The notes beneath the pieces are model-generated. The model was not told where the DNA came from, ran no database searches, and saw only the letters and a program-made list of their open reading frames with translations. Below are positions 8,417 to 62,775 of a stretch of 64,000 nucleotides of DNA, piece after piece. The first letter of the stretch is position 1. Each line of letters opens with the position of its first letter. A program made the position numbers and the translations under genes. This DNA is from Styela clava (lineage: Eukaryota > Chordata > Ascidiacea > Stolidobranchia > Styelidae). The stretch covers positions 17,236,001-17,300,000 of the forward strand of contig NC_135251.1 in assembly GCF_964204865.1 (NCBI RefSeq). The letters are read 5' to 3'.

Positions 8417-8944
8417 TAGGCTTACCATACGTCCCGGTTCAGCCGGGACAGTCCCGGTTTTAGCATGTTTTTCTGCCGTCCCGGCGATAGACTTAAATGT
8501 CCCGGTTTTGCAGTATGACAGTCATAATAGTTTTTCTATTCGATAATATTACAAAAAAAATTATTTTTAATGGAGGCAGCCGATTTACCAATGATTTGCG
8601 TCTCACTTCATGACATGAAGTATGAACCATGCGTTAATTTAACACCCAACTGTAATGTCGTTGAATCATCAAAATGCCGGAAACAAAGTGCAAGTTTTCT
8701 AATGAGTTTAAGAATGAGAACAATTCCCATTATTTGAAGCGAAGGCCAATAGAAAGAGAGAGTTTATTTTTATTTGTCAAACCGAGGATTTCGTAGTAAG
8801 ATTTACAGCTAATTTTGATGCCTGCAATCTACCCACAATGGTAGGAAAACGTTTAAACTATTACTAACCCCCAGAATCGAACCAAGTTTGACTTGTCCAA
8901 TCCGCGCCGTCCCGGTTTTTGGCTTCAGAGATATGGTAAGCCTA
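8417..8944. mobile_element. hAT-like element, 528 bp; holds the left end of the tandem unit
   Basis: Perfect 13-bp terminal inverted repeats (TAGGCTTACCATA at 8417-8429 and its complement at 8932-8944) are flanked by a perfect 8-bp target duplication CTTATTCC (8409-8416 and 8945-8952). Eight-base duplications fit the hAT superfamily. Both ends carry GTCCCGG-rich subterminal motifs. A short ORF from about 8673 (MPETKCKFSNEFK) resembles the start of hAT-type transposases but soon stops. The tandem unit begins inside it at 8647. Confidence 0.8.
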
Positions 8945-8994
8945 CTTATTCCCCATTCTTGACGTCTGTGCTGGGACCAACTCGTTCAGATCAA

Positions 8995-10588
8995 ATATAG
9001 AGGACTTGCACGGGTCACGTGACTTTGTTACTGGACGGCAATAAAACAAAATCGTCCATTTGGCTCCTGTCAGTTGCAAGTCGGATTATACGTTTCCGTT
9101 TTGTTTGGCTGTTGAAAATGGTTATTTCGTATTGTTCCGTTGGCTGCACGTATAGTATAGACTATAGACAACGAAATGGATCTTCAGTTATATTCCCCTG
9201 TTTTCAAAAGATCCGGAACGTCGCGCAATGTGGATATCATCTATTGGCAGATCTGCTTGGTGTCAAGTCCAGAAGCCATCTCACTTGTGTTTAACTGTTT
9301 GCGGACAGCACTTCGTTGATGGTGAGTCATCATGTGCCGTTATCGAATTTTTAAATATTCATAAGCTCCCTCATTTCAATGGAAAGCAGATGACAAACTA
9401 CTGTTATTGGTAGGCCTAGGCGTAGGCCTACTTGCAGACTTGACTCGTGTAAGGTATTAATCAATAATTGCCATAAGGTATTGTTTTCCTAGTTAGCAGG
9501 TAATCTATTAGTAATTGTGAAAAGTTGAATAGATAACTAAAGTTTAACGCCAGTGCTCATGCAAAAAATAACCAGAATTCAATTGAATTCGCCATCTAAG
9601 AGTACGCTCGCCACCGCATCTCTGATCCCACTGGGAGTTTCACAGCTTCCAATCCCATGCGGGGATAGTTATGTGCGAGTGGATTGCAGCTCTCCTCCCA
9701 CTGAGGGTGGTTCACACGACCGCTGGTCGATTACGACATCCCCCACCATCAAGTATATGCTTCTAAAACAAATAACTGGCTAACTAATCCCGACATAGAA
9801 ATGGTAATCGTACGATGCTGCACCTTGCAATCTGTCCCCAACCAATGATAAATTCTATCCTGAAAACTACCCACATTGGTAGGCATAGTTGCGTTTTAAA
9901 TTGAAAGAAATCTTCATTAATGGTCAAATTGGTCTGATTGTTTTGTTAGTTAGCAGGTAATTTATTACTGATCTGATACACAAACTTGGCACTGTCAAAT
10001 GATGATAAGTGTTTAATTTATTTTCAGGAAAAAGGGAAGATAACCCATTATCAGCTGCTTATATGTCCCATCGAAACACATGTAAGATGGCTTCTGGACT
10101 TGACACCAAGCAGTTCTGCCAATACAATAGGCAATGGATGATATCCACATTGCGCGACGTTCCGGATCTTTTAAAATTAGTGGAATATAACTGAAGATCC
10201 ATTTCGTTGTCTATACTATACGTACAGCCAACGGAACAATACGAAATAATCATTTTCAACGGTGACCGTACATTTGAACCTACGTACATTTGAACCCATG
10301 TGTATATTCGCGAGTTCAATCTATATGCGGGTGCTAAACCCATGGGTTAGGGTTAGTATGAGTTCAAATATCCGTAAAACAACAAAAATTTTCATAGGTG
10401 CAATAGTGTGCAGGTGCAATCGTCGTGGGTTCAAATGTACGTGGGTTCAAATGTAATGGAACCATTTTCAACAGCCAAACAAAACGGAAACGTATAATCC
10501 GACTTGCAACTGACAGGAGCCAAATGGACGTTTTTGTTTCATTGCCGTCTAGTAACAAAGTCACGTGACCCGTGCAAGTCCTCTATAT
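8995..10588. mobile_element. THAP-type DNA transposon relic with long inverted ends, copy 1
   Basis: Inverted repeats of about 300 bp lie at 8995-9290 and 10076-10588; the right arm is interrupted by a 203-bp MITE. The left arm encodes the first part of a THAP-like zinc finger (YCSVGCTYS, C-x4-C). A second frame just inside continues with LCLTVCGQHFVDG, which matches the C-x2-H-F end of a THAP domain. The two parts are in different frames, so the domain is broken. THAP domains are DNA-binding modules of P-element-like and related transposases. The interior 9295-10071 shows no intact transposase. Confidence 0.7.
10261..10463. mobile_element. 203-bp MITE, insertion A, copy 1
   Basis: It starts GGTGACCGTACATTTGAACC and ends with the complement of GGTTCCATTACATTTGAACC, so the inverted ends are imperfect and about 40 bp long. 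A perfect 9-bp target duplication ATTTTCAAC flanks it (10252-10260 and 10464-10472). The element sits inside the right arm of the THAP transposon. A 9-bp duplication suggests a Mutator-like mobiliser. Confidence 0.85.
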
Positions 10589-10769
10589 ACTACTACGTTC
10601 AGATACATCTTTAAAATATTTTTACTTGGTGTTTCATATCGCCGATAAGCGTTTAAAGCAAATACTAACCAAATGGAGCTTGTATATGTATGCAAATTTG
10701 TTTCAATATATATAAAATACATTGTGAAGATCAACAATGCATAAATATTTATGTAGGTAGATTCTAGAC

Positions 10770-11070
10770 CAGGCACGCTTTTTGGACCGGGTGCCAAAAA
10801 ATTTGTCTACTTAGACTGGCGGCCATGTAAGTGTGACGTAAAAAGTTACATTTTATAAACAATATTTACACTGTTACAAAAGCAAAAGTGGAAAACAGTG
10901 AGCCTCGTGCCAAAACGAAATATAATCCCAATCTCAACAAATTCCTTGAGCTATTTTTAGCCCAACATCAAAATTTGGTTTTAGTTTGGTTGTGGCAGCA
11001 TCATGCGGGCCAGACTGAACTACCCAACGAGCCGGATTTGGCCCGCGGGCCGTAGTTTGCTCATGTCATA
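10770..11070. mobile_element. hAT-like non-autonomous relic, copy 1
   Basis: It begins CAGGCACGCTTTTTGGACCG and ends in a GGCCCGCGGGCCGTAGTTTG block, the terminal pattern of many hAT (Charlie-type) elements. I could not find a clean 8-bp target duplication, so its ends are approximate. Confidence 0.5.
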
Positions 11071-11651
11071 TGTCTGTTGTAGACGGTTTGCACAAACGAG
11101 TTTGACTAACATTCACTGCCCAGGACGTAACCTGCAACAGCTGAGCTATGGCGCCATTGGTAACCAATTGCCACAGTTGCCCAGATATGAGGATATTTCT
11201 TTATACATTGACTTTGAATTAGATTCTGTGTAGCAACTAATAAAAACGACGGGAATGTTGTTAAACTACTGAGAGGGGTTCTACGTACAATTTGTGAAAG
11301 GCGTAATCATGTTCATTCTAACATTTGTCGTGAGTTGCATAAGCAAATACTCAAACTCATTCACCTAAACTCTCTCTACAAACAGTCACTAAAAATGTTG
11401 AGGTTTTCTATATACAACTTCTCTCTGTGTACTACGCTCTGTACAAGCAACTAAACGAAAATATGGGTGAGTTCATTCACATACCCCTTGAGAGCCAAGC
11501 TTCACCGACTGGCGCTACGTATAGATTTGCAAACCTATAACACAAGCCTACATTTTCTGGTTTTTAGTTTATTTATTCAATCAATAGACGAAAGAACATA
11601 TGCAGGAACAAATGACGAAATTGGCAAAAAAACACATCTAAACATTTAAAT
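11071..11651. other. 3' flank of RGS3-like gene, copy 1
   Basis: No gene is seen. On the minus strand AATAAA (11568-11573) lies about 80 bases past the RGS3-like stop and is a plausible poly(A) signal. Confidence 0.5.
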
Positions 11652-14600
11652 TTAATTTTGTGAAATATATCGTCTGTAAGAATCAGATTCCATCAACCGA
11701 AATATATGATCTTGAGCTTCCTGGAACATTTCTGAGGTTGGATTCTGCAGCTTTTCTGTTATCATTGAACGTATTTTTGATGTAATATTAACCTGAAAAT
11801 ATAAAAGATTATCCATTAGGCATTGACGTATTTGAATAATTTGGAGCCGGAAGGTTTTTTTTAGACTGAATCAGAACAAACCAACCAACAACCAAATCAT
11901 ATGGGTGGCAATGTTTTCATTGAAAATGGAGGGACCTGAGCCCTGGCAAAGACCAATGAATGACTCGCTCCAGCAGCAGTAGATAAAATTTCAAGGATAT
12001 GATGGATGTTTCGCCTATATATATGGCCGTTCACTCAAAAATCAAAAAAAAAATAGTGCTGATAAAGACTGAATGTCAAATCATACCTCACACTCTGCAT
12101 CAGAGTGGATATATTTTTTGTAGATCGCAGACGCAAGTTTACGTTGTTTTGTTGTCTTCTTATTTTTGTAACTTTCACATTCAGTCCAAAAATCAAGATT
12201 TTCCTCACTGTGCTCTATTGCAAGAAATGCGCGAAAGGAAGCACATTTACCTTCAAAAAATAAAAAATATACATTAATATATATATATGTATTTTCAAAA
12301 CAATGAGAGAGAAAGGTAATAAACCTAACCGCCGAAGAATACTGGCAAATGATAAAATGTAGATTATGTGAAAACAGTTTTAAAACAGAATATTACATTA
12401 ATTCGTATCTGATTATAACCAGGATTAATCTAGGTTTAATTTAAAATCGATTCACGGGAATATTCTACAAACCTTTATCTTTCAAAATAGCTAGCAGTCC
12501 ATTCGCTGACGAAGAATTGGAGGAACAAGACGATACGTTAATAATATTACTTTCCAGTGCTGTGTAGCCTTTCTTCTCCTCGTTCTTATGTTTTCTTGAC
12601 TTGACACGACTAAATTAATGTTGAAAAAATATATTTGAAAAACATTAGAATATATGAGGTAAGAAATGTATCAGCACAAGTGACACAAATAGTTTACACT
12701 TATACAAGTTAAACTTTTTTTCATTTTCAACTTCAATCATTAACATAAAAATAAACTAGCAGCAGCACAGAAGCTACAAGATTTGTGTATGATTTCATAT
12801 GTCAGTTATAAGAAAAGCAAAGAATCTTTTCACTTCAGTAAATGCCCATGTACTGTTCCTAGCAAAAGTGTGTATGCTTCATTTAACTTATCTAGGCTAT
12901 TGCATTTGATCAATACAGGGCACAGGGTTACTAATTCAACAAACCGACTTATGGAACCCTGTACTACAAACATCCAAATATTTCGATTCAAAGTAAGATA
13001 TATTTATGTTTGTCACGGTAAGAGTCAAATAAGGTAAGAAAAAAGACTTTTGTTACTTACAATATCTTTTTAATCTTTTCTGTTTCGATCCAATCAATTT
13101 TACTCGAAATATTTTTGTTGTTTTGTAGTTCTTCTTTCGTTTTCAAATCTGATTCGGAAGAACATGACCGACTTCTTATTCGTTTTGGATCAACATCGCT
13201 TGATGACGTAACACTAACGATTTCCACGCGATCATTGTCATAATTTTGCGACCTCGAGCTATTTATTTCAGATGACACGATATCACTCGGTGCCCCAAGT
13301 TCGAATTTTTGAGGAAAATCTGAAAATGAAAAAATTAAATAATGCAAACTTCCTCACATCGACCCAAGGTGAACGCATGCTTGAATCTACTTACCAATGA
13401 AATCAGGATAATATAAGGTGAACTTCTCATTCCCAGCCTGTAACAAAGAAATTATAATGTTTATATATTATATTTTTTTAATTTATTGGTTCAGTTTGTT
13501 TAAACGTATAGATTCGTCGGAATATTTATAAGATTGCCTTTGCATTGTGCTGTGACGCCGCTTCAATAATAAAAAAATCGAATATCGGAACAATTAGTTT
13601 ATAAAATCTACATACCGATTTTTGCATACGAAAACTCTCCGACTTATTAAAATATCTTTTGCTGCTTGTGCGTTCATATCCGTTAATGCTTCTTTTTGCA
13701 GATCGTCGAAGAATCGGCGATTCACATCCGGGAACCATTTGTCTCAATTGCGCGAGTTGTTTTTTCCCGTCATGATATGTTCGTCTTCGGACTATTCTCG
13801 CCGACTTTTGCAAATTTGCACCGTATGTAACGGACGCCAAACACAGCGGTGTACCGGGAGTGTTGCTAGGACGACAGGGAATGGAGTTACCAGCATATAA
13901 CGGGGGCTTGCAAATTTGAAATGTCTGTTCCTGCTCTTCAGTCAAAAACACATCATCATTATCTTCATCTTCAAATTGTATTGGTTTGATTTGGTGCTTC
14001 ATATCATGTTGTGGTCTGAATGGCGTTTGCTGGTCTATATCATTTTCTATATATCTATACTTTTGTAGTTTTTCTCTCGTTGTAATGAATTGCAAGTTAT
14101 TTTGCGCTGATGTCCTTAGTCGATGTTCGTTCAATTTACGCTTTTTGTGTCGAACACCACCTTTTCTATTAAGTTTACGTTTATATCCGCCTTTTGGTGT
14201 ATTGTTCAATTCTCGGTTGTTTCGATGACTTCTTTGAATTTTCAGCACTACAACACCGGAACAAGATCTATATAGAGGCAAAATACCAGTTGGCAATTTT
14301 GTTCATTGCAAAAATATATAAATAATAACCTAAAAATAACACTTACCTCAGTAAATTTTGAAATTCAAAATTAGTCCGGTTATTAACAATTGACCCATTG
14401 ATTGACAATATTACGTCTCGTTCACGGAGTCCGACGGAATAAGCTTGTGATCCTGAAAATAAAAGGTTTATATACATTTTAATCAAAGTAAACTAGTAAG
14501 AAACGCAAGGCAACAACTCTCTTAGGCTTTAATAAGAAAAGGAGCATTTTGAGTAAAATAGATCAGCTGGTATGTTTTGTATTGATATCGTACGAAAATT

Positions 14601-17600
14601 TACACATCTGACTAAGCTTTAAAAGTCTCATGGTTTTGTGACAAAATTAGTTGCTTGTGCATTAGGATTTTTCGGAAGCGACATCAACTTATTATAAAAC
14701 TCACTCGACTCGGTTAGAACCCCTTACCTTCTGTGACTGATGAAACACATGGTGGCGATTGTGTTTGTGCGCCAAATTGAACATCTCTTACAATGGCATT
14801 AGTCGATAATTGGATCTAAAAATAGAAATATTTTTATTGAATAATGTTATAATATATATTGTCTATCGGCAGAAGAACCGTTCTATGTATCGTACATGAG
14901 TTTGACAGTGTTTGGGGCATAATTAGTGATGAAAGCTTGATGCGTCCGACGTTTCCCAATTTCATGCTTTGAGATTAATAGTAATTGTTCCGAACTAACC
15001 TCCTTATGTTCGATCATTTTTCTGCTCGGCGTGAATCCAGCTTGTGATTTGTCATTTTGTGATGTCTCTGCTGGGAACTGATTATAATTCATTGTCTTTA
15101 CCTTGTTTTCTCCTGATGTCAGAAATGAGAAAGTACATTTATTTATTCATTTTATTCTTATATTATTACGAGTCCCGAGTGAATGAGAGATTTCAAACAA
15201 ATTTGAATCCATGCGTTCCAAGCAAGACTTTTCCGTCGACCTACTTACCAACACATCATTTGCATAAAATATGCGATAAAATTAACATTTTGTATACACT
15301 AAGTTATCATATTTGCATAATAATTATCTTACTGCTGAGGCTTTGATTCGGTTTCACAGCAAGATGTTTTCGTCGTCCTATGTTCTCACCGAGCAAGTAA
15401 TATGAACCTTGAATTATCTGTGAAATAATGTTGAATTAATTGGAATGACTGACATGACACTGACATTTTAAGCAGAAACGACGTATTACCGTTGCTTGAG
15501 ATCAAAACAATAACGATTTGGAATATGTGGTTGTTCGTTTAAAATCGAGAATAACAGTTCAATTTTTGAATATTATTACGTTAATAATAAAAATGATGCA
15601 AGTTACCTCATTATTCGTCATAAACTTCCGAAGTCCAAAGCTTGTGCATCCTTTAAAATTCACCGGAGTCATAGCCTGTGACCAGACTTCAATCAGCAAT
15701 CTTCTATTCAATGCCATCCGAGACAAGTTACTAGAATTTTAATTTTTTCATGTAAATTTTTAATTTAAAACCTAAACTATTAGATCAAGATATTCTTTTT
15801 TTTTCAGCAAAAGGTTCGGCCATTCCGTGTATGTCAAAACTTGACAAATTATAATCGTAATGGTATTATCAGTACTTACAAAGAGACCGTCTCGTGGAGA
15901 ATGGTTTCTTTTGCTGCCATGTGCACCTTCATGATATGTTCAGCATGTGTTTCGCTCTTTTCCGAAATTAGGGAAATCTAAAAATAATATGCGATTACTT
16001 TCACATGTTACCTGAAATTTACGACGAAAATCTACCAGTAAATTTTTGTTGAGCAATTTTAAAATAACAAAGTCCAGATCCTGATTCTAGCATTCATATT
16101 ATCAAATTATCCATTTACATAATATATCTTATTGTCGCGATACAAATGAACATACCAGCATACGTCACTTGATTAGTACAGGTAAGGACGTAATTAAGTT
16201 TGGACTTACCTTTATGTAAATGCTGGATCCTATTGAAGACAAAATGTTTCTAATTCCCAACAGAGTGACAGTCAACTTCTTGGCCGTTCCACATGCCACC
16301 AATTTGATTTGACCTTGATAAATATCAGGTATTATTCCATGATTGAATTTTTGTTTTAGACGGTTAGAAAAAACATGACAAAATAGATTTCGATACATAA
16401 TTCCGAAAGCATCAAATCATGGAAAAAAAATTAGGCATCGCTTAAAAATTGAACATTATTCAATATACTACAAATCATCACTTACCTCGCATTGTTAGGC
16501 GCCAATAACAACAACGTTCCTCCTCACAAATTGCTTAGATAAAATCAGTAAGAAATAATTAAATATAAAACTGCAATGACAACGCATATGTTTAAACATA
16601 CGTCGACAATATTACGAATTAAGTGAAGGTTTGTCTCTGGCACGCTAAATCATATATATCTTTCGCTGATCTGTCTCCTGGATTCGTTTGCTAATACTAT
16701 TTGCACGGAAGCCTGACCTAGGTATCAAATGTCACCTTTCTACTTCGCGATACGTTTCTCCTTGACTAAGCAGTCTAAATAATCGTGAAAAGTAGAACTG
16801 CAAACACTTCGTTGTTTGCGAAGGAAGATGAATCAAGTGACGTCAAAATTTCAAAGCGGATTACACTGCTGGAATCTTTTTGAACCAACTAAATTTTTTG
16901 ATGATTTCTGACATGCTGGGTTTTCTAGTGCTGAAATTTTGTGGCGATGCATGGCGGAAATTGTTTTCTGCTATTCACTGGCAGACTTTCCGTTTTAAGT
17001 TCGGATACATCAAGCCGGGTCAAACAGGATCCACATCTAATAAGCCATATAATACTCGAATATTTTACTTTCACTTAAATTTACATGGTAACCCATTGTC
17101 AAACTAAATCCGAGTTTATTATTTTCACTGCAGCCGCCGTAATATTCCACAATATTATATATATATATTCAATACTTTCTCGATTCGCACTCAATAACTC
17201 TGGTCTAGGTTTAACCTGCCGGCACCCACATTTCAATGAATGAGATACTGTTGAAATCTTCAACTGTCGAAATTGAGAGTACTCAGAGATGTCAGACAGT
17301 GAAAACTGTCTGTGACCCAAATCACGTCAGCGAAAAAAAAGAAGCAACATCTGCCTCAGTTTATTCATATCAAGAGACAATAGCCAACACAACGGGTTGC
17401 CTGAGTGGCAAGGCGGTCATTATACCGTGAAATGAAAACTTCCCAGCAAGGCAGGTGTGCCAAGTTTTTTACCTTTATGTATAATTATGTGTTATCATAC
17501 GCTGATTACTTGCAGTTTTACTTTTATAATGCCAGATTAGCGCACACGTTAAGTTTCACTATCACGAAAAGTCAAATCCTTAATGAACGGGATAACTATT

Positions 17601-19529
17601 TAATAATCGCTAATGATGATTGGCAGAAGTCTGCTTACGTAGAATCAGACTGTCATAATAAATAAAACAATAATTAATACACTATATGTCGAGCAACAAA
17701 ACGAATGATTACGGTATTTACGGTCTATTGTGACAAGACTTGTCGTACGGTTCCATTACATTTGAACCCACGTACATTTGAACCCATGACAATTGCACCT
17801 GTATGCTATTGCACCTATGGATTTTTTTTTGTTTCACGGATAGTTAAACCCATACTAACCCTAACCCATGGGTTTTAGCACCCGCATATAGATTGAACCC
17901 GTGGATATACGCATGGGTTCAAATGTACGTGGGTTCAAATGTACGGTCACCTTGTCGTACGCAATAGCGAAATTTTCAATCGAAAGCCAAGAAACGAATT
18001 ATGTGACGTAATCATTCCGTAAAGAAGGAGCTTCAGGGTTATTGATATTCAGCGACATACATTGCCAACTTTTCGGTTTTACATTTTTGGTTTACTCTGA
18101 CATCTTGCATTCCATATCCTTAGGACGGACTAATGGGCTCTGCGAGATCTAGCAGAATAAAGACATTCCGATGACGCCGTTTCCGAAAATAAATCATTTT
18201 GGCATGCGTATCAATCGCACCTGTTCTTGTGTTATTTGCTTTGGGGAAATCATATAAGTCGGAGGCGCACGTTGATTTTTTCAGTTGGAGTTTCCGTAAT
18301 TATCGCCAACAATCTTAATTTTTCGCAGTTTCGACAACTATCAACAGGTGAATGTCAATACTATCCAACCCGATAATTATCGCGCTTAGACTCTTGATTA
18401 ATTACATCAGACACATCTTTATCTTATTGAAAGTACTTTTGTTTCTCGCAATGTCAAATGACTAAGCGTTTGGCCTAAATAACTAATCGTGATTTACGGA
18501 CTAATATCAGGTCTCAACATTTTGTAAATTTTTCTTCATCATTTTCTATCATAACCTATTTCTTATTTCTATCTACAGCGAAATTACGGTTACGGACTAT
18601 ACAGTTACGGACTACGGTATTGGCAAGATCTGAAATAACATTCGCCCAACACTACTTTCAACAAACTTGCGGTCGAACAATCCACATTGTAGAAACGTTA
18701 ACGTAAAAGGTTTCGACAATCAACAGCAGTTTTACGACTGATAGTGCGACTTTACAACGCCCGAACTCTAAAGAAATGTTCTCTTGCATGTTGAACGTCG
18801 TTCTAAATTGCCATATTTTCATAAACTACATTGACAGAACGTAATTACCCAGTGTATGACTAATGCAATTAAATACACGTAATGTTTGTTCAAATAATAA
18901 TAGTAATACCTTGATTGGGAAGTTTGTTGCTTATGTTTTTATTACTCTCTACTTTTCTCTTCTTTGGAGTAGGGAATACTGAAGATTCTGAATCCGTACT
19001 GTTTGTGCTTCCGCGCATTCTACGCTTGATCATTTCTTGATTCAATGTACTTCCATAATAGACTTCATTAAAATTTGCATATTCGTCGCCAGATGATTCG
19101 GAGTCATGGTCCGTCATTCTGAAATTTCAAAATGCTATTATGTGTTGTATTCGGCGGTTTAGAATTAAACTTTTCTCTGACAAAATCGTGGTGAAGTAGT
19201 TAGATCTATTGATTTCATTGCTGCCTGTTGGGTGAGCATATTACCGTCATGCTACGGATTGTCTTATCATTAGCTAGTGGGTTGTATACTAAGTGTAAAA
19301 TTGAAACTTCAAAAATTTGAGAAATAAATTATAAATTTCACCTTTGATAAACATCAGCGTAAATCTTTCTTTTCGTAACTTCATCTTCTGAAGAAAGACT
19401 TGATGTTGTGCTCTTTCGAATTTCATCCCAATCAAATGATAACTTTGGGCATATCGTTTTCAAGTCAAACTTGAATGAAATCGGTTTTTTGTTTTGTAAT
19501 ACAGTAAATTCATTCGTTTCGCTCGCCAT
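11652..19529 (-). CDS. RGS3: RGS3-like regulator of G-protein signalling (C2-PDZ-RGS), copy 1
   Basis: Exons: 19342-19529, 18910-19118, 16210-16313, 15880-15977, 15607-15730, 15333-15417, 15000-15112, 14728-14815, 14347-14452, 13616-14267, 13395-13437, 13061-13319, 12473-12609, 12087-12250, 11652-11792. All phases agree, giving 836 residues. Order: acidic and serine-rich N-terminus with a PKKRKV nuclear-import motif; C2 domain (GQIKLVACGTAKK to GSYYLLGENIGRRKHLAV, close to vertebrate RGS3); PDZ domain (EIQLSTNAIV to GVVVLKIQR); a long basic and acidic linker; RGS domain (SFRAFL, SEENLDFW, VNITS, LMESDSYRRYIS). The family speeds GTP hydrolysis by Gi and Gq alpha subunits and so shortens GPCR signals. 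Odd points: the PDZ carboxylate loop is poor (QFGA instead of GFGF), and the protein stops just after the RGS helix, without the usual C-terminal tail. An alternative first exon may lie at 16486-16492 (ATG CGA G), also in phase. Joining the two upstream exons to the C2 exon is inferred from phase. Confidence 0.85.
16486..16492 (-). CDS. alternative first coding exon of the RGS3-like gene, copy 1
   Basis: ATG CGA G is followed by a strong donor GTAAGT (16485 down) and joins in phase to the C2 exon at 16313, giving MRGQIKLV. It would yield an RGS3-like form lacking the 132-residue acidic N-terminus and its nuclear signal. A third possible start is the ATG at 16398, if that intron is retained. 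The same bases recur at 34272-34278 and 52058-52064. Confidence 0.45.
17749..17951. mobile_element. 203-bp MITE, insertion B, copy 1
   Basis: Same family and length as insertion A, in an RGS3-like intron. It is flanked by a perfect 9-bp target duplication TTGTCGTAC (17740-17748 and 17952-17960). The core contains CTAACCCTAACCC, two units of a telomere-type hexamer. Confidence 0.9.
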
Positions 19530-19607
19530 TGTAACATATGTGGTGACATAAATTTTGTGGATCTTGTTTATATAACCGATTATATCTTTCGTGGGAAAAT
19601 TAAAAAA

Positions 19608-19669
19608 CTGATAAGAAATGTGTTATACATCTTATCAGCAATTGAAAGGATTGCTGATCAATCCTTTCA
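19608..19669. promoter_or_regulatory. two adjacent hairpins upstream of RGS3-like start, copy 1
   Basis: CTGATAAGA (19608-19616) pairs with TCTTATCAG (19630-19638). Then TGAAAGGATT (19643-19652) pairs with AATCCTTTCA (19660-19669) across a 7-base loop. They lie 79 to 140 bases upstream of the ATG. The first pair forms two inverted GATA-factor sites (TGATAA). A regulatory role is inferred only from position and motif. Confidence 0.35.
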
Positions 19670-20138
19670 TTTAGTAAAATTAAAAGAAATTCTCGATTGC
19701 TACTCAGATAGTACTTGATAACGATTACCGTATCTTTTAAAAATTTGCACTCAGGTTGAAAATATAGACATAGATATCAAGACAAAATGTAATCAAAGGT
19801 ATGAAATGTTGATCAAATCAAGTAAAAATTTGAGTGTTCCGAAACTTTGTAATTACATTCGCACATATATTTTGTTATATCATGATATACAACTGAAAAG
19901 CCAGAAAAGTTTTCCGGTATAAAAACCTATTTTTCGCGACACAAGAGTACCTAACGTAAGGCAAGATGTAGCAGAGCGACAATGCTGCTAAATATTAGGC
20001 GAAACTTGTTTTTATGCCTGTTCTCTAATTGAACACTCCAAGTAAGTGGTCGAAACCTAGACATTTTGTTTCTGTTGACCTGAGCAATGAGCATCTCATC
20101 AATACACGTGCATTTGATTAAGTGAATATATATATACT
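19670..20138. other. intergenic DNA between RGS3-like and SLC22-like genes, copy 1
   Basis: I see no gene in this stretch. It may hold further promoter sequence for the RGS3-like gene. The remaining gaps 20315-20906 and 21117-21496 also lack supportable genes, apart from an AATAAA on the minus strand at 21351-21356 that could end SLC22-like transcripts. Confidence 0.4.
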
Positions 20139-20314
20139 CAGTGGTGGGATTCAGCCGGTTCGCACCGGTTCTATAGAACCGTCTCGTGGAATTTTATGAG
20201 TACAGCGAACCGGTTAGCATCCCTGAAAAAACATGACTTTTTGTAACAGAAACGGCTGAAAAATATGACTTTTGTGATGGAACCGGCTGACAAAAAATTT
20301 GAATCCAACCACTG
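20139..20314. mobile_element. hAT MITE, 176 bp, copy 1
   Basis: It starts CAGTGGTGGGATTCAGCCGG and ends GAATCCAACCACTG, flanked by a perfect 8-bp target duplication TATATACT (20131-20138 and 20315-20322). The terminus and the internal ACCGGTTC motifs match a hAT-type consensus that recurs in many animal genomes. Confidence 0.9.
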
Positions 20315-44516: not shown

Positions 44517-44566
44517 CTTATTCCCCATTCTTGACGTCTGTGCTGGGACCAACTCGTTCAGATCAA

Positions 44567-46160: not shown

Positions 46161-46341
46161 ACTACTACGTTCAGATACATCTTTAAAATATTTTTACTTG
46201 GTGTTTCATATCGCCGATAAGCGTTTAAAGCAAATACTAACCAAATGGAGCTTGTATATGTATGCAAATTTGTTTCAATATATATAAAATACATTGTGAA
46301 GATCAACAATGCATAAATATTTATGTAGGTAGATTCTAGAC

Positions 46342-50200: not shown

Positions 50201-53200
50201 CATGGTTTTGTGACAAAATTAGTTGCTTGTGCATTAGGATTTTTCGGAAGCGACATCAACTTATTATAAAACTCACTCGACTCGGTTAGAACCCCTTACC
50301 TTCTGTGACTGATGAAACACATGGTGGCGATTGTGTTTGTGCGCCAAATTGAACATCTCTTACAATGGCATTAGTCGATAATTGGATCTAAAAATAGAAA
50401 TATTTTTATTGAATAATGTTATAATATATATTGTCTATCGGCAGAAGAACCGTTCTATGTATCGTACATGAGTTTGACAGTGTTTGGGGCATAATTAGTG
50501 ATGAAAGCTTGATGCGTCCGACGTTTCCCAATTTCATGCTTTGAGATTAATAGTAATTGTTCCGAACTAACCTCCTTATGTTCGATCATTTTTCTGCTCG
50601 GCGTGAATCCAGCTTGTGATTTGTCATTTTGTGATGTCTCTGCTGGGAACTGATTATAATTCATTGTCTTTACCTTGTTTTCTCCTGATGTCAGAAATGA
50701 GAAAGTACATTTATTTATTCATTTTATTCTTATATTATTACGAGTCCCGAGTGAATGAGAGATTTCAAACAAATTTGAATCCATGCGTTCCAAGCAAGAC
50801 TTTTCCGTCGACCTACTTACCAACACATCATTTGCATAAAATATGCGATAAAATTAACATTTTGTATACACTAAGTTATCATATTTGCATAATAATTATC
50901 TTACTGCTGAGGCTTTGATTCGGTTTCACAGCAAGATGTTTTCGTCGTCCTATGTTCTCACCGAGCAAGTAATATGAACCTTGAATTATCTGTGAAATAA
51001 TGTTGAATTAATTGGAATGACTGACATGACACTGACATTTTAAGCAGAAACGACGTATTACCGTTGCTTGAGATCAAAACAATAACGATTTGGAATATGT
51101 GGTTGTTCGTTTAAAATCGAGAATAACAGTTCAATTTTTGAATATTATTACGTTAATAATAAAAATGATGCAAGTTACCTCATTATTCGTCATAAACTTC
51201 CGAAGTCCAAAGCTTGTGCATCCTTTAAAATTCACCGGAGTCATAGCCTGTGACCAGACTTCAATCAGCAATCTTCTATTCAATGCCATCCGAGACAAGT
51301 TACTAGAATTTTAATTTTTTCATGTAAATTTTTAATTTAAAACCTAAACTATTAGATCAAGATATTCTTTTTTTTTCAGCAAAAGGTTCGGCCATTCCGT
51401 GTATGTCAAAACTTGACAAATTATAATCGTAATGGTATTATCAGTACTTACAAAGAGACCGTCTCGTGGAGAATGGTTTCTTTTGCTGCCATGTGCACCT
51501 TCATGATATGTTCAGCATGTGTTTCGCTCTTTTCCGAAATTAGGGAAATCTAAAAATAATATGCGATTACTTTCACATGTTACCTGAAATTTACGACGAA
51601 AATCTACCAGTAAATTTTTGTTGAGCAATTTTAAAATAACAAAGTCCAGATCCTGATTCTAGCATTCATATTATCAAATTATCCATTTACATAATATATC
51701 TTATTGTCGCGATACAAATGAACATACCAGCATACGTCACTTGATTAGTACAGGTAAGGACGTAATTAAGTTTGGACTTACCTTTATGTAAATGCTGGAT
51801 CCTATTGAAGACAAAATGTTTCTAATTCCCAACAGAGTGACAGTCAACTTCTTGGCCGTTCCACATGCCACCAATTTGATTTGACCTTGATAAATATCAG
51901 GTATTATTCCATGATTGAATTTTTGTTTTAGACGGTTAGAAAAAACATGACAAAATAGATTTCGATACATAATTCCGAAAGCATCAAATCATGGAAAAAA
52001 AATTAGGCATCGCTTAAAAATTGAACATTATTCAATATACTACAAATCATCACTTACCTCGCATTGTTAGGCGCCAATAACAACAACGTTCCTCCTCACA
52101 AATTGCTTAGATAAAATCAGTAAGAAATAATTAAATATAAAACTGCAATGACAACGCATATGTTTAAACATACGTCGACAATATTACGAATTAAGTGAAG
52201 GTTTGTCTCTGGCACGCTAAATCATATATATCTTTCGCTGATCTGTCTCCTGGATTCGTTTGCTAATACTATTTGCACGGAAGCCTGACCTAGGTATCAA
52301 ATGTCACCTTTCTACTTCGCGATACGTTTCTCCTTGACTAAGCAGTCTAAATAATCGTGAAAAGTAGAACTGCAAACACTTCGTTGTTTGCGAAGGAAGA
52401 TGAATCAAGTGACGTCAAAATTTCAAAGCGGATTACACTGCTGGAATCTTTTTGAACCAACTAAATTTTTTGATGATTTCTGACATGCTGGGTTTTCTAG
52501 TGCTGAAATTTTGTGGCGATGCATGGCGGAAATTGTTTTCTGCTATTCACTGGCAGACTTTCCGTTTTAAGTTCGGATACATCAAGCCGGGTCAAACAGG
52601 ATCCACATCTAATAAGCCATATAATACTCGAATATTTTACTTTCACTTAAATTTACATGGTAACCCATTGTCAAACTAAATCCGAGTTTATTATTTTCAC
52701 TGCAGCCGCCGTAATATTCCACAATATTATATATATATATTCAATACTTTCTCGATTCGCACTCAATAACTCTGGTCTAGGTTTAACCTGCCGGCACCCA
52801 CATTTCAATGAATGAGATACTGTTGAAATCTTCAACTGTCGAAATTGAGAGTACTCAGAGATGTCAGACAGTGAAAACTGTCTGTGACCCAAATCACGTC
52901 AGCGAAAAAAAAGAAGCAACATCTGCCTCAGTTTATTCATATCAAGAGACAATAGCCAACACAACGGGTTGCCTGAGTGGCAAGGCGGTCATTATACCGT
53001 GAAATGAAAACTTCCCAGCAAGGCAGGTGTGCCAAGTTTTTTACCTTTATGTATAATTATGTGTTATCATACGCTGATTACTTGCAGTTTTACTTTTATA
53101 ATGCCAGATTAGCGCACACGTTAAGTTTCACTATCACGAAAAGTCAAATCCTTAATGAACGGGATAACTATTTAATAATCGCTAATGATGATTGGCAGAA

Positions 53201-55101
53201 GTCTGCTTACGTAGAATCAGACTGTCATAATAAATAAAACAATAATTAATACACTATATGTCGAGCAACAAAACGAATGATTACGGTATTTACGGTCTAT
53301 TGTGACAAGACTTGTCGTACGGTTCCATTACATTTGAACCCACGTACATTTGAACCCATGACAATTGCACCTGTATGCTATTGCACCTATGGATTTTTTT
53401 TTGTTTCACGGATAGTTAAACCCATACTAACCCTAACCCATGGGTTTTAGCACCCGCATATAGATTGAACCCGTGGATATACGCATGGGTTCAAATGTAC
53501 GTGGGTTCAAATGTACGGTCACCTTGTCGTACGCAATAGCGAAATTTTCAATCGAAAGCCAAGAAACGAATTATGTGACGTAATCATTCCGTAAAGAAGG
53601 AGCTTCAGGGTTATTGATATTCAGCGACATACATTGCCAACTTTTCGGTTTTACATTTTTGGTTTACTCTGACATCTTGCATTCCATATCCTTAGGACGG
53701 ACTAATGGGCTCTGCGAGATCTAGCAGAATAAAGACATTCCGATGACGCCGTTTCCGAAAATAAATCATTTTGGCATGCGTATCAATCGCACCTGTTCTT
53801 GTGTTATTTGCTTTGGGGAAATCATATAAGTCGGAGGCGCACGTTGATTTTTTCAGTTGGAGTTTCCGTAATTATCGCCAACAATCTTAATTTTTCGCAG
53901 TTTCGACAACTATCAACAGGTGAATGTCAATACTATCCAACCCGATAATTATCGCGCTTAGACTCTTGATTAATTACATCAGACACATCTTTATCTTATT
54001 GAAAGTACTTTTGTTTCTCGCAATGTCAAATGACTAAGCGTTTGGCCTAAATAACTAATCGTGATTTACGGACTAATATCAGGTCTCAACATTTTGTAAA
54101 TTTTTCTTCATCATTTTCTATCATAACCTATTTCTTATTTCTATCTACAGCGAAATTACGGTTACGGACTATACAGTTACGGACTACGGTATTGGCAAGA
54201 TCTGAAATAACATTCGCCCAACACTACTTTCAACAAACTTGCGGTCGAACAATCCACATTGTAGAAACGTTAACGTAAAAGGTTTCGACAATCAACAGCA
54301 GTTTTACGACTGATAGTGCGACTTTACAACGCCCGAACTCTAAAGAAATGTTCTCTTGCATGTTGAACGTCGTTCTAAATTGCCATATTTTCATAAACTA
54401 CATTGACAGAACGTAATTACCCAGTGTATGACTAATGCAATTAAATACACGTAATGTTTGTTCAAATAATAATAGTAATACCTTGATTGGGAAGTTTGTT
54501 GCTTATGTTTTTATTACTCTCTACTTTTCTCTTCTTTGGAGTAGGGAATACTGAAGATTCTGAATCCGTACTGTTTGTGCTTCCGCGCATTCTACGCTTG
54601 ATCATTTCTTGATTCAATGTACTTCCATAATAGACTTCATTAAAATTTGCATATTCGTCGCCAGATGATTCGGAGTCATGGTCCGTCATTCTGAAATTTC
54701 AAAATGCTATTATGTGTTGTATTCGGCGGTTTAGAATTAAACTTTTCTCTGACAAAATCGTGGTGAAGTAGTTAGATCTATTGATTTCATTGCTGCCTGT
54801 TGGGTGAGCATATTACCGTCATGCTACGGATTGTCTTATCATTAGCTAGTGGGTTGTATACTAAGTGTAAAATTGAAACTTCAAAAATTTGAGAAATAAA
54901 TTATAAATTTCACCTTTGATAAACATCAGCGTAAATCTTTCTTTTCGTAACTTCATCTTCTGAAGAAAGACTTGATGTTGTGCTCTTTCGAATTTCATCC
55001 CAATCAAATGATAACTTTGGGCATATCGTTTTCAAGTCAAACTTGAATGAAATCGGTTTTTTGTTTTGTAATACAGTAAATTCATTCGTTTCGCTCGCCA
55101 T
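47224..55101 (-). CDS. RGS3: RGS3-like regulator of G-protein signalling, copy 3
   Basis: All exons recur 35,572 bases to the right of copy 1 (first 54914-55101, long linker exon 49188-49839, last 47224-47364), with an identical predicted protein. This copy lies directly downstream of the only complete SLC22-like gene, which is the arrangement expected of the unduplicated locus. Confidence 0.85.
53321..53523. mobile_element. 203-bp MITE, insertion B, copy 3
   Basis: Same insertion with TTGTCGTAC flanks. Confidence 0.9.
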
Positions 55102-55179
55102 TGTAACATATGTGGTGACATAAATTTTGTGGATCTTGTTTATATAACCGATTATATCTTTCGTGGGAAAATTAAAAAA

Positions 55180-55241
55180 CTGATAAGAAATGTGTTATAC
55201 ATCTTATCAGCAATTGAAAGGATTGCTGATCAATCCTTTCA
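55180..55241. promoter_or_regulatory. two adjacent hairpins upstream of RGS3-like start, copy 3
   Basis: Same paired inverted repeats as at 19608-19669. Confidence 0.35.
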
Positions 55242-55710
55242 TTTAGTAAAATTAAAAGAAATTCTCGATTGCTACTCAGATAGTACTTGATAACGATTAC
55301 CGTATCTTTTAAAAATTTGCACTCAGGTTGAAAATATAGACATAGATATCAAGACAAAATGTAATCAAAGGTATGAAATGTTGATCAAATCAAGTAAAAA
55401 TTTGAGTGTTCCGAAACTTTGTAATTACATTCGCACATATATTTTGTTATATCATGATATACAACTGAAAAGCCAGAAAAGTTTTCCGGTATAAAAACCT
55501 ATTTTTCGCGACACAAGAGTACCTAACGTAAGGCAAGATGTAGCAGAGCGACAATGCTGCTAAATATTAGGCGAAACTTGTTTTTATGCCTGTTCTCTAA
55601 TTGAACACTCCAAGTAAGTGGTCGAAACCTAGACATTTTGTTTCTGTTGACCTGAGCAATGAGCATCTCATCAATACACGTGCATTTGATTAAGTGAATA
55701 TATATATACT

Positions 55711-55886
55711 CAGTGGTGGGATTCAGCCGGTTCGCACCGGTTCTATAGAACCGTCTCGTGGAATTTTATGAGTACAGCGAACCGGTTAGCATCCCTGAAA
55801 AAACATGACTTTTTGTAACAGAAACGGCTGAAAAATATGACTTTTGTGATGGAACCGGCTGACAAAAAATTTGAATCCAACCACTG
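55711..55886. mobile_element. hAT MITE, 176 bp, copy 3
   Basis: Counterpart of 20139-20314 with TATATACT on both sides. Confidence 0.9.
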
Positions 55887-56478
55887 TATATACTGTATAT
55901 ATACATGGCATATACTTGGACTATGTTTGCAAAATCGAAGAATATAACAATGCTCATGGCAGCTATTTTTAGGTATAGAATCACGGCGGTGGTTCGCAAC
56001 CAATGGGGATTTAGGGGTTGTTAACGGGAAACAAACTCACACACAGTAAACACAATGAAAATCATAATACATGACACAGGGAGAAGAAAGCTGCCTATGC
56101 TGTCACAACTACACAAGAGTTTGATGAAACGTCCTGATGGTGTGATGTGTCATAATTGCGAAACGGTCGACACCAAATGACCACAAAATTCGATCTCCTA
56201 GATTGCTTCGAAAATGGCCTGTCTCCTGGCAGAGAGGTGTCACCTTTCCTCGCGATTAATACCAAAGCAAGCAAAAATTCCGCATACCTAGATCAAAATA
56301 ACGAGCACAATGGTGATAAAAACAACGAGCACGTGGTGATCAAAACAACGAGCACACGCCACACATCAATGAAGTATTTCTGGAATGGCCAACCAGTCAG
56401 AGACTAAGAGCCGCATTTCGTACTTCATTACCGCGAAGAGCCACATTATAAACAAGAGCACATGAACATCAGATATAC

Positions 56479-56688
56479 CTTTATTCATCTCTGCTAGAAT
56501 GATAGTTTTTTGTGAATGTCACTAACCACGAACTTTCTGTAAGCCACGCCCTTCCACCAGTTGGTTGGCATAAAAACAGTTGAACATCCGACGCACAGCA
56601 CGACTGTTTGAGCGTGACTGAATACCGTCGTAATCTTATAGCAACCTGGGCACTTTACATCCATGAAATACGAGTTTGGTTCTTGTGA
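56479..56688 (-). pseudogene. RPS27: RPS27 retro-pseudogene, copy 3
   Basis: Counterpart of 20907-21116 with the same frameshift. Confidence 0.8.
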
Positions 56689-57068
56689 CATCTGGTCCCT
56701 ACCATTAAAGCGCAATTGAGCTGGTCTTCGTCATAAAGATTTGATCATCTTCAACTCAGTTGCAGCCTCATCTGAGACTAGAGGGAATTTCAGGGGTGTG
56801 CTATTGTTTGATTTCTTCCAAGCATTATTCTTTGAAAACAAGTATAGAATAGGCATTGTGGAGATGAGAACGTTTCTAGCTCGCCCAACAAAAAAAAGGG
56901 ACAACAATATACTACGCACAATTTTATTGGAATGTGCTTCGGGAGCACATTCTCCAGGTCCCTTGGAAGTTTTTATATACTGTATATGTAATTAGTTTTT
57001 TACTCTTCCTGTTACCAAGTAACCAATATGGGTCAGCATAATAAATCACTAAAGATAATATGTTTCGA

Positions 57069-60000
57069 TTATAAAATGCAGTTTTTTATTTTATCATTTT
57101 CATCCGCATCCGAGGTAAATGTGCTTGTCGCTGTCTTTCTGGTATTTTTTTCCAACTTTGCCTTTTTACACGATGGTACTTGTAACCTGTGAAAGAAAAT
57201 TTTAATACAACATTTTTGTAATCTTATAAACCAATGGTTAAATATAGGGAACTTTGTTATCACAATTTTGATGTTGGACATTGACAAACGAGTCGAACTA
57301 ATAGCGTACTCGAAATTTTATTTTGAAATGATGGCAATTTTCTCAAAGTGTTAATAGCACATCATAAAACATAGCTCTGAATAAGAAGCAACGGATATGT
57401 GAGAAGCTATCGTGTATGTAAATGAAACACATTCTAGATTTACAATGTGTCCTGATTATTGGGCCCGAAGTGTTAATATGGTGTGTTTTGCTAAATTGTT
57501 GTTGTTGACTTGTTGTCTCCATAAAATAATGCACCAATCGTTTTCAAATTTACAGCACTTAAATATCGTTTATTCCTCTAGAAGGCTATCACTTTTATAT
57601 TTTCCCGACGCCTATAAAATTCGATATTTCATGCAAAATTTTGTTATCACTGCAAATACTGCGCCGCCGCGTGGCGTCACTTCAAATCTCCCTCACATCT
57701 TTCCGACAAAGTCTTTGCTGTCTTCTCAACTCCAGTACTACCAATGTTAATGCGGCGGTTAGACTTGATTTGAAGCTTTCGAATGATCATATAACGGATT
57801 TCATTCTAAGTCTCATGGGTACTGCAGTTGGTATTCGTGTTCGTATATTTGAGCATTGTTCTTTTGTTTGGAAAAAAAATTATGGTTTATTGGACCGCAA
57901 TTGTAATTATATATATTAGACAACTTCAAAATGCGCTGTAAAAAGAAAATAACCATGTTTTTGAGCATACCAGTCAAACAGATTATTACTAAACAAAAAG
58001 GGTACCCTCGTAGTATGTGATCCAAGATGGCGGACACCGGAACGTAGTATGTGTACCAGGTAGGGTTAGGCCATAATTTCAGGTACAAATACTACGGGAG
58101 TCACTTGGATAGTCCCCGAACTCGTAATAGAACTAAACTAAGGAAAACTGGATTAAAATTATGGCCTAACCCTAACCTGGTACACATACTATGTTCAGGT
58201 GTCCGCCATGTTGCTTCACATACTACGGGAGCGCCACAAAAAGTGTGAGAAGTACGTTACCTATATTTTTCTAATGCAAGCGACTCCTCCAGAGTTTCGG
58301 GAAGGGGTAGATCTTTTGTTTCGGGCAACAAGAGCGTTACAATTGACGCGACTAGAGCAATACCGCTTAAAATCAGAAATGGAACCAACTTCGAACTTTC
58401 ACCTGTAAATTACGAATAATACCACAATATGCTAGGTTCGGTACATATTAATACAGCGCCCAGTTGTGGCAACTCATATAACTGTAATCTTATCCTATGA
58501 AGAGTGAATAATCTGGGTCAAGCTTACCAGTGAAAGCAATAAACGGCGCCATCAAACCACCAAAACGGGAAAGCGTTGCAGAGAATCCAAGTGCCGTGTT
58601 GCGGAGTTTTGTTGGAAAAAGCTCAGCTGGATACAAAAAAATCATTGCCATAGTAGATGAAATAAAAACCTTTCCGAGCATTGCAAACGCAATACTTACT
58701 GCGTTATCTGCAATAGGAAGTAAGATGATCAAGCTCATTTCAAACAACTTTGGAATAGCATTTCGAGTCTTTCGCTAAGCTATTCATGAAAATCCACAGT
58801 TTATCAACCAGAACAATATTCGCTACATATCTGATACTTTTTACCATATCATTACACAGTAGGCCCACGGTATTATGCAGTAAGTTTAACTCACAGTTGC
58901 CAAACACCGGGCAGAGTATTGAGCATAAACATGATATTGCATATGCTGCGGATAACGTAGATCTTCTACCAAATTTTTGCAGAAAATAAGGAGCAAAAAT
59001 CCAGCCAGGAAGTTCTGCAGCGGCGGAAATAAAACAGTTCCAGTATTTGTTTCCTTCAAGGTTTGACGTATTAAATCCAAAACCATAATAAGATGTCAAA
59101 GTCGCGGTGCTATAACAATAGGAAATCAGGAGTTAACTAAAAATCTCCGTTTCTGACAAAGCTGTCCAATCTACGACAAACATTATTTATCCTATGTAAT
59201 TTTAAAGTGAAAAGTCTTACATAATCCAACTGATAATGAAGCATCGCTTCAGCAATACTCGGTTTCTTAAAAGTATGATGAAATGAGTCTCCTTTGAATC
59301 CTTACTTTTTGTAGTCTGAATTGTGAATAGATTCGGTCAACACTAGTTTTAACGTGCTCTTTAATAATTGAAAACTAATACCTACACTAGATTTTGCGGG
59401 TGACGAAATCAAAAATATATTTTGCCTCAAAAGCTTTTGATTTGTCGTATTTTTTCGCATGATGAATTTCATGACTTTTGTAGCTTCAGCAATGCGACCC
59501 TTACTTGCAAGCCATCTTGGAGATTCAAAAATAATCCTTCATAACAAAATAAGTAATTATATATAGGAAAACATATTTAACATGATGAATAAAATGGTTC
59601 GAATAAGCTGGTAGGCGTGGTTATTTATTTGGATTTCATCTCCCAAAATACCATGACGGAGACAGCCACGTTGTAAAACCAAATCTAGTATGGCTATGAT
59701 TGTTCTCAAACATACTATTGTGAAATCATTTTTTTGTTTTCAACCTCTTAACATCGGGCTCAAGCTTAAATTCGCTATTTCAACTTACATTATTTGAAGA
59801 CTTACCAACAAGAAGGAATGTACAGAATACCAATCAAGCCAACGACTCTCAAAATCCATCGCCAATCTTGACATAGATATGCGATTGCTGGGACCAGCAT
59901 GTACGAGAAAGATTCAAAAGAATAAATAAGACAGCTGATTGTAGCTCGTTTGTCAGTTTTGACCAATTCTTGTACTGATAAATTAAATTTATATGATAAA

Positions 60001-62775
60001 TTCCGACAAGGCAAACCAGCTACATTGCTGAAAAGAACAGGGACCTCGTGACTCAGTTTCGGAGTTTCGAGTTTTGAAAAATGTGTAGCGTGATGCTTTA
60101 TTTCCCTGTTTATTTGTCTTGCGGTGTGTATGACCTACAATTTCGAACAACGAAATTAATCTTTTGTACAATATTTAAAAAAATGCAAGTTGTCAAATTG
60201 GGCATAAAGAGAGTTAATTTGGTAACACTCTTGATGCAATGTATGTTTGCATTAAACTAAAGCCCTAAAACAATAATAATAAGTAATTTATACCTACAAG
60301 AATTTGATTATGTCTTACCATATAAAAATGCTGTACAAAATGCTGCTGCGTTGATTGCTCCTAATAACGTAAACCATATGACACAAGATGCAAAGTTTGG
60401 CGCAAAGCTATAAGCGATCATCAGTGACGATATAATCATACCGTAAATAATTGTTGGCTTCTTCCGTCCAAACCTGGAATTTCGTAAGAGTTATTTTCGA
60501 TTAATGGTACGTATAACTGGCGTAGTTTTGTGCAACAAGGCTTTGGGATTTATCTTTAAATGTTCAAATGTTTCTCCCAGTGATGAGAATGTCCATGGAG
60601 TCTATAGAGGCGAAAAATAGCAGCTAGAAGATTATTACTTTTTAAAAGTTTTTAAGAGTCAATTTTGACTGCTGTGTTTCCATTCATGGGAACACTTTTT
60701 ATAAAATATGGGCATATGACATTTTATTGTGTCACTTTTTTATTATATGCACGTGACCATCGTGCTAATGTTTTTGAGCATTCTACTTTTGTTTCCTAGT
60801 TAGTTGTTTGTAATCAAGTTGGATTTCAAGAGATGTGCAGTGTTTAGCAAATCGCTGTAGCCTACTTTATAATCGGCGTTTTTACTGTAATGTTAAAATT
60901 TCTAGAAAAGTAAAAATGTTTTTGTTTTGAGAGACATTTGTTGCTTAAAATAAATCTTGCATTCAACTTCATAGTTTTTTTTATGGTATGCAAATTGAAC
61001 AAACCTGTCAACTATCATCCCTGCAATCAGACCACTAAACATTGGCCCTGCTGAAAATCCAAGCGTCAGAAGAATTCTTTGCCAATCATCATTACAGACC
61101 AAGTCAAACTAAAAACGAATCATGACTCCTGGTTGAGCTGAGAGGATGACTATTTAGGAAATATAAAAACACCATTTACAATCTTTTATCGTCGACTCAT
61201 ATAATATTATTTCTTAGCAGATGATTTGAAGGAAAATGTAATTTTAAATGCAGTTAATAGATTGCTCTTTACCTCCTCTGTCCCAGTTTTTACCCCATCT
61301 TTTGCATTGTATACCCATCCGTCTTTGCAATATTCATTAGCATAGCTCCCGGTGGTGTTAAGTGTGATGTTGTGGTTTGAAACATTGACATACCTAAATT
61401 TAACTGTGACGTTTTACGTTTACCGGATATCCCAAAAAAAATCTCTTCTAGAATTGAACATTGTTGTATATATATATATATATATATGGTGACCGTACAT
61501 TTGAACCCATGTACATTTGTACCCATGCGTATATCCACGGGTTCAATCTATATGCGGGTGCTAAAACCCATGGGTTAGGGTTAGTATGGGTTTAACTATC
61601 CGTGAAACAAAAAAAATTCCATAGGTGCAATAGCATACAGGTGCAATTGTCATGGGTTCAAATGTACGTGGGTTCAAATGTAATGGAACCTATATATATA
61701 TATTCGCATAATATCATGTTTGAGGCAGCTACTGAATTATGATGCCACAAAAGCCAACAGAATTTAAGATCGAAACGCAAATACAATGAAATAAACATAG
61801 CATATATCATCAAAAACATACCTTTTGCATTTTGAAAATTCATTCCCATTCGGTCCCTCATGTGGAATGTAACGTAACAAGATTGATCTCGAGATATTCC
61901 TTTCTATCTGAAAACATGTTTGCATTATTTCAAATGTAGTTAAAATAATATAGAGGATGTCGGCTCCGAGGGCCACAAAATTATTTTTGCATTGTTCGCG
62001 AGCCACAATAGTGCCAAGAATAGGTAAAACAGTGCAATACAAAACAAACACCTTTATTGTGCAAACACATAGTTATCAGGCATAGTCATTCTAGGCTAAT
62101 AGAATCCGCATTCGATTTTTAGTTTTCCTATATTGTTTGCATATATTCCCGACCAAAAAGTTAAAAAGCCAGATAACAATTTGGACCGCCAAGCACATCA
62201 TTCAACTTCGCTAGTTTCCCCAACTATCCATAACACTATTTAATTCAGTGATAATAGTGATGACAATATGTCAAAAAAATTTTCTGATTAATTTTATGAC
62301 GAAACAACATGAAATGCGATTTTTTGATTACTCTCCGAATGTGACGCGGGCCACAGATAATGAAGCGGTGGGCCACATGTGGCCCGCGAGCCTGGGTTTG
62401 GACCACCCTGATATAAAGCATAACAAATAAATATAAAATAACAAATAAAGGCCGTTCATGGAGCCAACGGATAACTGGTTCACTTGATGAGGCTCTTCCA
62501 AGCATTTGAGTGATGAGTGCCTTTAGTGTTGAGACGGAAACTATAACCTTTGTCATACCTTCAGTGGATCAATCAGTAAACATTACATATATACATACCT
62601 CATCGACAGCTGGAATGTAGCATCTATGATCTGGTATATCAAAAATGAAGACCGATGTAAAATTTATTGCTCCAACTTGAATTGCAATCAGAAATATTGA
62701 TAGAATACCAAACTTGTGATGCAAGTTGAAACCATCACAATTCTCAAATATTGACTCAATGTCAATGGACAACAT
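57069..62775 (-). CDS. SLC22-type organic cation/carnitine-like transporter, complete, copy 3
   Basis: Exons: 62599-62775, 61822-61907, 61273-61393, 61005-61108, 60319-60473, 59806-59974, 59386-59536, 59221-59315, 58895-59109, 58528-58707, 58261-58402, 57069-57186; 570 residues, usual for SLC22 (about 550). Exon 1 (MLSIDIESIFENCDGF) carries membrane segment 1. The large extracellular loop follows, with cysteines (HRC, SKC, YCKDGW, LVCNDDW) and glycosylation sites NVS, NIT and NTT. Then come the MFS motif DRFGRKKP, the ESPRWLASKGR loop, FLYPAELFPTKLRN and the C-terminal PETKDLPLPET signature. The family moves organic cations, anions, carnitine or zwitterions across the plasma membrane; the substrate cannot be told here. 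The last exon is joined because the donor at 22688 (copy 1 numbering) and the next acceptor agree in phase. Without that splice the protein would end at KYR. Confidence 0.9.
58006..58232. mobile_element. foldback element in SLC22-like intron 11, copy 3
   Basis: Counterpart of 22434-22660. Confidence 0.7.
61488..61690. mobile_element. 203-bp MITE, insertion C, copy 3
   Basis: Same element, but the flanking TA runs are 6 and 2 bases shorter than in copies 1 and 2. Confidence 0.85.
61951..62405. mobile_element. second hAT-like relic, spanning the right end of the tandem unit
   Basis: It begins near GTCGGCTCCGAGGGCCAC and ends with GTGGCCCGCGAGCCTGGG, then TTTGGACCACCCTG, the style of hAT termini. 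The interior is decayed. The unit ends inside it at 62034. In copies 1 and 2 only its left piece remains (26350-26432 and 44136-44218). Confidence 0.5.

Follow-up and report, generated by a model that had tools for sequence, protein, structure and literature searches.

A probable, very young head-to-tail triplication carrying RGS-domain exons and part of an SLC22 gene, in Styela clava

The window analysed here is the whole stretch of 64,000 nucleotides of Styela clava between positions 17,236,001 and 17,300,000 of contig NC_135251.1 (forward strand, all positions below being counted from its first letter). It contains an array of direct copies of one gene-bearing segment, arranged head-to-tail on a single chromosome; the unit includes RGS-domain exons, a fragment of eS27 (RpS27) and seven exons of an SLC22-type transporter gene (Table 1). 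The two open frames of the RGS domain in copy 1 (11655-11870 and 12084-12392) each match the Pfam RGS family and, when joined, reach an E-value of 5.6e-29, so that the product is an RGS protein by its domain; the RGS domain exons occur three times. The sequence-only reading of this DNA had named the gene RGS3-like. The Pfam match bears out the RGS part of that name, and the RGS3 part is neither shown nor excluded by the solved structures, among which RGS4, RGS18, RGS1, RGS2 and RGS8 score above RGS3, and RGS16 both above and below it, by modest margins in a ranking by score. The nearest solved relatives, RGS4, RGS18, RGS1 and RGS2, belong to the R4 subfamily. It is likely that the whole RGS gene lies inside the unit, and we go no further than likely because the candidate upstream exons have no convincing family match. 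The eS27 fragment is a pseudogene. In the left flank, open frames with TPR matches were observed on the minus strand (1310-4457). Searches of the window with Rfam (gathering threshold) and ARAGORN gave no RNA or tRNA matches, and 8647-12000 had no match in a plasmid collection, as expected for a eukaryote.

Table 1. Positions of the repeated units, genes, interspersed repeats and junctions in the window.
Feature	Position	Strand	Length	Remarks
Tandem unit, copy 1	8647-26432		17,786 bases	same as copy 2, every letter
Tandem unit, copy 2	26433-44218		17,786 bases	
Tandem unit, copy 3	44219-62034		17,816 bases	
RGS domain, two exons, copy 1	11655-12392	-		copies 2 and 3 at +17,786 and +35,572
Open frames upstream of RGS domain, candidate N-terminal exons	13060-14302	-		no Pfam match
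Further candidate 5' exons of RGS gene	18893-19622	-		no Pfam match above curated cut-off
eS27 (RpS27) fragment	20925-21158	-		frameshifted; between RGS and SLC22 genes
SLC22-type transporter, exons 2-8, copy 1	22956-25793	-		without exon 1; hand model
SLC22 exons 2-8, copy 2	40742-43579	-		without exon 1
SLC22 exons 2-8, copy 3	58528-61403	-		adjoins exon 1
Likely SLC22 exon 1	62596-62775	-		includes a start codon and the first membrane helix; not in repeated unit
Left interspersed repeat, whole	8417-8944			13-base terminal inverted repeats 8417-8429 and 8932-8944
Right interspersed repeat, whole	61954-62415		~460 bases	different from left one
Junction 1/2	26352-26440			81-base right-repeat stub and inner left-repeat part, CAA common
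Junction 2/3	44138-44226			sequence same as junction 1/2
CAA microhomology, left copy	8647-8649			
CAA microhomology, right copy	62035-62037			
Copy-3 substitutions	unit positions 2175, 14531, 14962, 14992, 15116, 15349, 15396, 16027, 17679, 17705			

The text of the sequence-only reading was silent on the SLC22 gene, as it was on the divergent end of copy 3 described below. Our hand model of this gene ends at exon 8, beyond which the exons expected for the last membrane helices were not found, and all seven exons (2-8) are preceded by AG and followed by GT in each of the three copies. The joined model matches Pfam MFS_1 and Sugar_tr as well as OCTN2 (E 1.1e-49), OCT1 and other SLC22 proteins, with 26 sequences at 1e-10 or better; a match to the MFS and closest relatives within SLC22 place the product among the SLC22 organic ion transporters, the SLC22 match coming from exons 2-8. 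The candidate for exon 1 aligns weakly with OCT1 residues 4-58 (E 0.22), adds 6 bits in the OCTN2 alignment and has no Pfam match. Its position, strand, PDHRC motif and donor in fitting phase all agree, and no other exon 1 match with an E-value below 1 was found elsewhere in the window; we regard it as the likely SLC22 exon 1. Since this exon is outside the unit, copy 3 alone has it attached and the genes of copies 1 and 2 are headless, which makes the latter two probable pseudogenes.

A string comparison of copies 1 and 2 found 17,786 of 17,786 bases equal, and these zero differences set their divergence at 1.7e-4 or less (95% upper bound). The two longest exact runs at an offset of 17,786 bases extend over 19,960 bases from 8647 and 12,355 bases from 28608, and chance is excluded as their source. 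The three head-to-tail copies reported by the sequence-only reading at 8647-62034 were located correctly to the base, and the absence of any difference between copies 1 and 2, noted there for the parts compared, holds across the full length; the exact step of 17,786 bases was confirmed up to 59622, beyond which it slips by +56, -18, -6 and -2 bases. No N letter was found in the 264 kb around the array and there is no gap between the copies, the next longest off-diagonal match in these 264 kb being one of 3.7 kb at 84%, in DNA resembling a tandem satellite. We also searched the species' own genome (376.6 Mb, 379 contigs), which is eukaryotic in its size, its genes with introns and its many interspersed repeats. 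Near-identical full-length matches of the RGS region and of the SLC22 region were limited to this array, with one other match for the former (87 bases, 78%) and 23 others for the latter (67-80%), and the remaining matches of the 1,000 bases at the start of the unit were repeats (93-96%). Haplotigs elsewhere in the assembly were not seen with the RGS region, the SLC22 region, these initial 1,000 bases, the junction or the right flank as queries.

Both unit edges cut through interspersed repeats. The left breakpoint (8646/8647) is located inside the left repeat, which runs across the equivalent position in all four other places examined (L013-L016; contigs 8, 3, 3 and 19), and the right breakpoint (62034/62035) is located inside the right repeat, 81 bases from its left edge, a repeat present in at least 39 other places with 89-93% identity among the matches listed. 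The letters at 26433 and at 44219 are alike, GTG/CAACTG, and the outer edges read ACC/CAACTG on the left and GTG/CAATAC on the right. The breakpoint edges have CAA in common and nothing longer, and when the two breakpoint regions are compared, no exact direct match exceeds 12 bases, the one of that length lying away from the breakpoint. Both cut repeats are intact in the outer flanks, where the ancestral single-copy sequence is thus kept at both edges, and whole repeats outside with fused halves inside are the mark that a tandem duplication of a single ancestral copy leaves. For flanks and junctions to be built in this way, the reads must contain at least one genuine junction. Direct copies, few shared edge bases and intact outer flanks were all found, as in a non-homologous tandem duplication, whereas the three-base microhomology taken alone is weak evidence.

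Two other interpretations of these edges were considered and rejected. An initial NAHR event would need like repeats, and those at the left and right edges are different; a TE boundary at 8647 is contradicted by the left repeat, which continues into the left flank. The matches that stopped at 8647 did so because the junction sequence was the query. The segment 8988-10592 and its equivalents in both other copies form a compound stack of a highly abundant repeat, ~650 bases of which are matched at 93-96% identity in at least 37 other places.

Copy 3 differs from copies 1 and 2 by 10 substitutions and four indels, the latter being a 56-base insertion (after 59622) and deletions of 18, 6 and 2 bases. 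These differences are unevenly spread: the first 14,530 bases hold one substitution only, and the other nine, with all four indels, fall in the final 3,256 bases, so that 18% of the unit's length contains 13 of the 14 events. For a boundary picked after inspection of the data, the binomial p of this clustering is 3e-9; in Monte Carlo placements of the substitutions alone, nine of the 10 fell within one 3,256-base stretch in 14 of 200,000 random trials. Both results argue that the cluster is not due to chance. Since copy 3 differs at one site in its first 14.5 kb, all three copies are similarly young there. A copy-3 substitution in SLC22 exon 6 replaces lysine by glutamate (23762/59334), and the remaining changes from unit position 14531 onward are outside the modelled exons.

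We interpret the locus as a very young head-to-tail segmental duplication, probably one that has reached three copies. That the tandem duplication is real, with at least two copies, is considered likely, with fairly high confidence; that there are exactly three is also probable, though stated with clearly less assurance. The type of event is already well known, and the present array is another instance of it. The process may have begun inside one repeat, where a break occurred or a fork stalled within the SLC22 gene's first intron. This site would then have been linked to another, 17.8 kb distant and inside the other repeat, the two having CAA in common, to give two copies. The junction anatomy would suit microhomology-mediated or replicative repair as the joining route, which we can only infer, since a three-base microhomology is not rare by chance. 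The long copies could then mispair, and an unequal exchange would add the third unit; such an exchange would explain why two of the three units are identical. The right end of copy 3, beside the unique flank, may represent another allele, which would have been brought in by a crossover with an unduplicated chromosome or by a phase switch in a mixed-haplotype assembly. In the simplest history, the duplication would thus have been followed by the crossover or phase switch at the right end of copy 3, and last by the unequal exchange, in which the first unit was copied.

Such an exchange is expected to leave a crossover scar, a middle copy resembling the last one in its 5' part and the first one in its 3' part (PMC12776057), and this was not seen in copy 2 at any of the differing sites. 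Copy 2 is copy-1-like at every one of them, including unit position 2175, so that either the crossover lay before this position, within the initial 2,174 bases, or the position reflects a later change or an error, or copy 2 arose as one entire unit.

The very recent triplication put forward by the sequence-only reading fits the identity of the copies, but a copy-number assembly error is still a candidate beside it. According to this possible, though less probable, explanation, the animal carries a true tandem pair, one unit of the copy-1/2 type and one with the right end of copy 3, and the first unit was written twice by the assembler or by a gap filler. A unit written twice by the assembler predicts that copy 1 equals copy 2, as is the case across 17,786 bases, a length that exceeds many long reads, and the missing scar in copy 2 therefore leans mildly towards such an error. 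So does a second array on contig 8, where two copies, identical in 3,000 of 3,000 bases compared, stand beside a different third. On the other hand, the single difference between copy 3 and copies 1 and 2 over its first 14.5 kb makes zero differences between copies 1 and 2 plausible for real young copies, and assemblers tend to collapse exact repeats more often than they expand them.

It is very unlikely that two haplotypes were placed end to end (a heterotype duplication) in an animal with no tandem copy, even if errors of this kind are widespread in assemblies (PMC9516828), and the divergence of the right end of copy 3 (nine substitutions in 3.3 kb) could equal heterozygosity. Differences throughout at the level of heterozygosity were not found, nor was a gap, two of the copies being exact and the third near-exact over 14.5 kb. 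Moreover, the half-repeats are fused identically at two junctions and have their whole versions in the outer flanks, and concatenation of haplotypes makes no such fused junction, which speaks against this explanation. We consider it equally improbable that the unit was present as an extrachromosomal circle in the tissue sampled and that reads across the junction of this circle produced a loop in the assembly graph. The junction of a circle would be the same as that of a tandem copy, and the circle would have the right end of copies 1 and 2; no direct sign of one was found, and as the right-end variants of the junction copies and of the flank copy differ, a circle would also need two alleles. 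A large mobile element, or a transposon that captures genes, can be practically dismissed as an explanation of the unit, for its two ends do fall in repeats, but inside them and not at their termini, the near-identical matches of its RGS and SLC22 regions are confined to this array, and no transposase was recognised in the 15 scanned of its 162 frames of at least 45 residues.

The closest precedent is the tandem copy-number array of MYH3C in stickleback, known from a preprint (PMC12776057). The units are alike in length, 17.6 kb in stickleback (PMC12776057) and 17.8 kb in Styela. The MYH3C unit holds one gene whole and has its breakpoints in neighbouring genes, the breakpoints show microhomology of a few bases but lack long homology, and the added copies are ascribed to unequal exchange among copies that are long and highly similar (PMC12776057); this layout of gene and breakpoints, the microhomology and the two-step logic match the Styela array. 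There are also differences: several haplotypes and populations were compared for MYH3C and one assembly here, and the crossover scar, present in intermediate MYH3C copies (PMC12776057), was not seen in the Styela array. Expression of MYH3C rose with copy number (PMC12776057). Among Drosophila copy-number variants, the commonest class (262 of 644, 41%) is a simple end with at least two bases of microhomology, and the role of NAHR is described there as small (PMC4056370). The Styela breakpoint is of this class, although most of the Drosophila variants are short, with medians in the tens of bases (PMC4056370), and the Styela unit, at 17.8 kb, is present three times. False duplications likewise consist of near-identical gene-bearing copies in one assembly, but heterotype duplications would not be expected to yield a junction of repeat halves with microhomology, twice alike (PMC9516828). 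A literature search for RGS and SLC22 with tandem copies returned no such array by title among the matches listed.

If the duplication is real, it represents a fresh change in gene dosage with breakpoints exact to the base and with a built-in test, copy 3 being joined to the SLC22 first exon and copies 1 and 2 not, and it would be a good marker for copy-number polymorphism in the species. If the third copy is a product of the assembly, the locus calls for caution on gene counts, the second array showing the same pattern. A more speculative and rather doubtful proposal is that of a live copy-number array, in which the RGS dose would vary among individuals through exchange among the long identical units, each addition bringing a headless SLC22 gene. 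Were this true, the headless SLC22 genes beside RGS could be a source of RGS-SLC22 read-through transcripts, and the exact twins here and on contig 8 (where compared) would point to frequent turnover of tandem units genome-wide.

The contig-8 array (7223971-7246930; L042, L044 and L045) likewise has three copies, of a unit of ~8.5 kb, two of them identical where compared. Its copies 2 and 3, to which the 3,000 identical bases mentioned above belong, keep a distance of exactly 8,495 bases at each of seven anchors, and copy 1 differs from them (98% in 1,480 bases). Exact twins are therefore not peculiar to the present locus, and the pattern reflects either common turnover of units in this genome or an assembly that tends to repeat units; the base rate for exact tandem copies is drawn from the 264 kb around the array and two arrays met by chance. 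On contig 3, two stretches of 3,298 bases (at ~18486791 and ~18509564; L014 and L015), 99.4% identical, lie 22.8 kb apart in the same orientation and are likely a segmental or haplotype duplication. Within 100 kb to the left of the window, satellite-like tandem arrays of ~3-4 kb were observed at ~4,300-8,200 of L019 and ~2,500-5,300 of L020, which have opposite orientations and are ~81-85% related among the matches listed.
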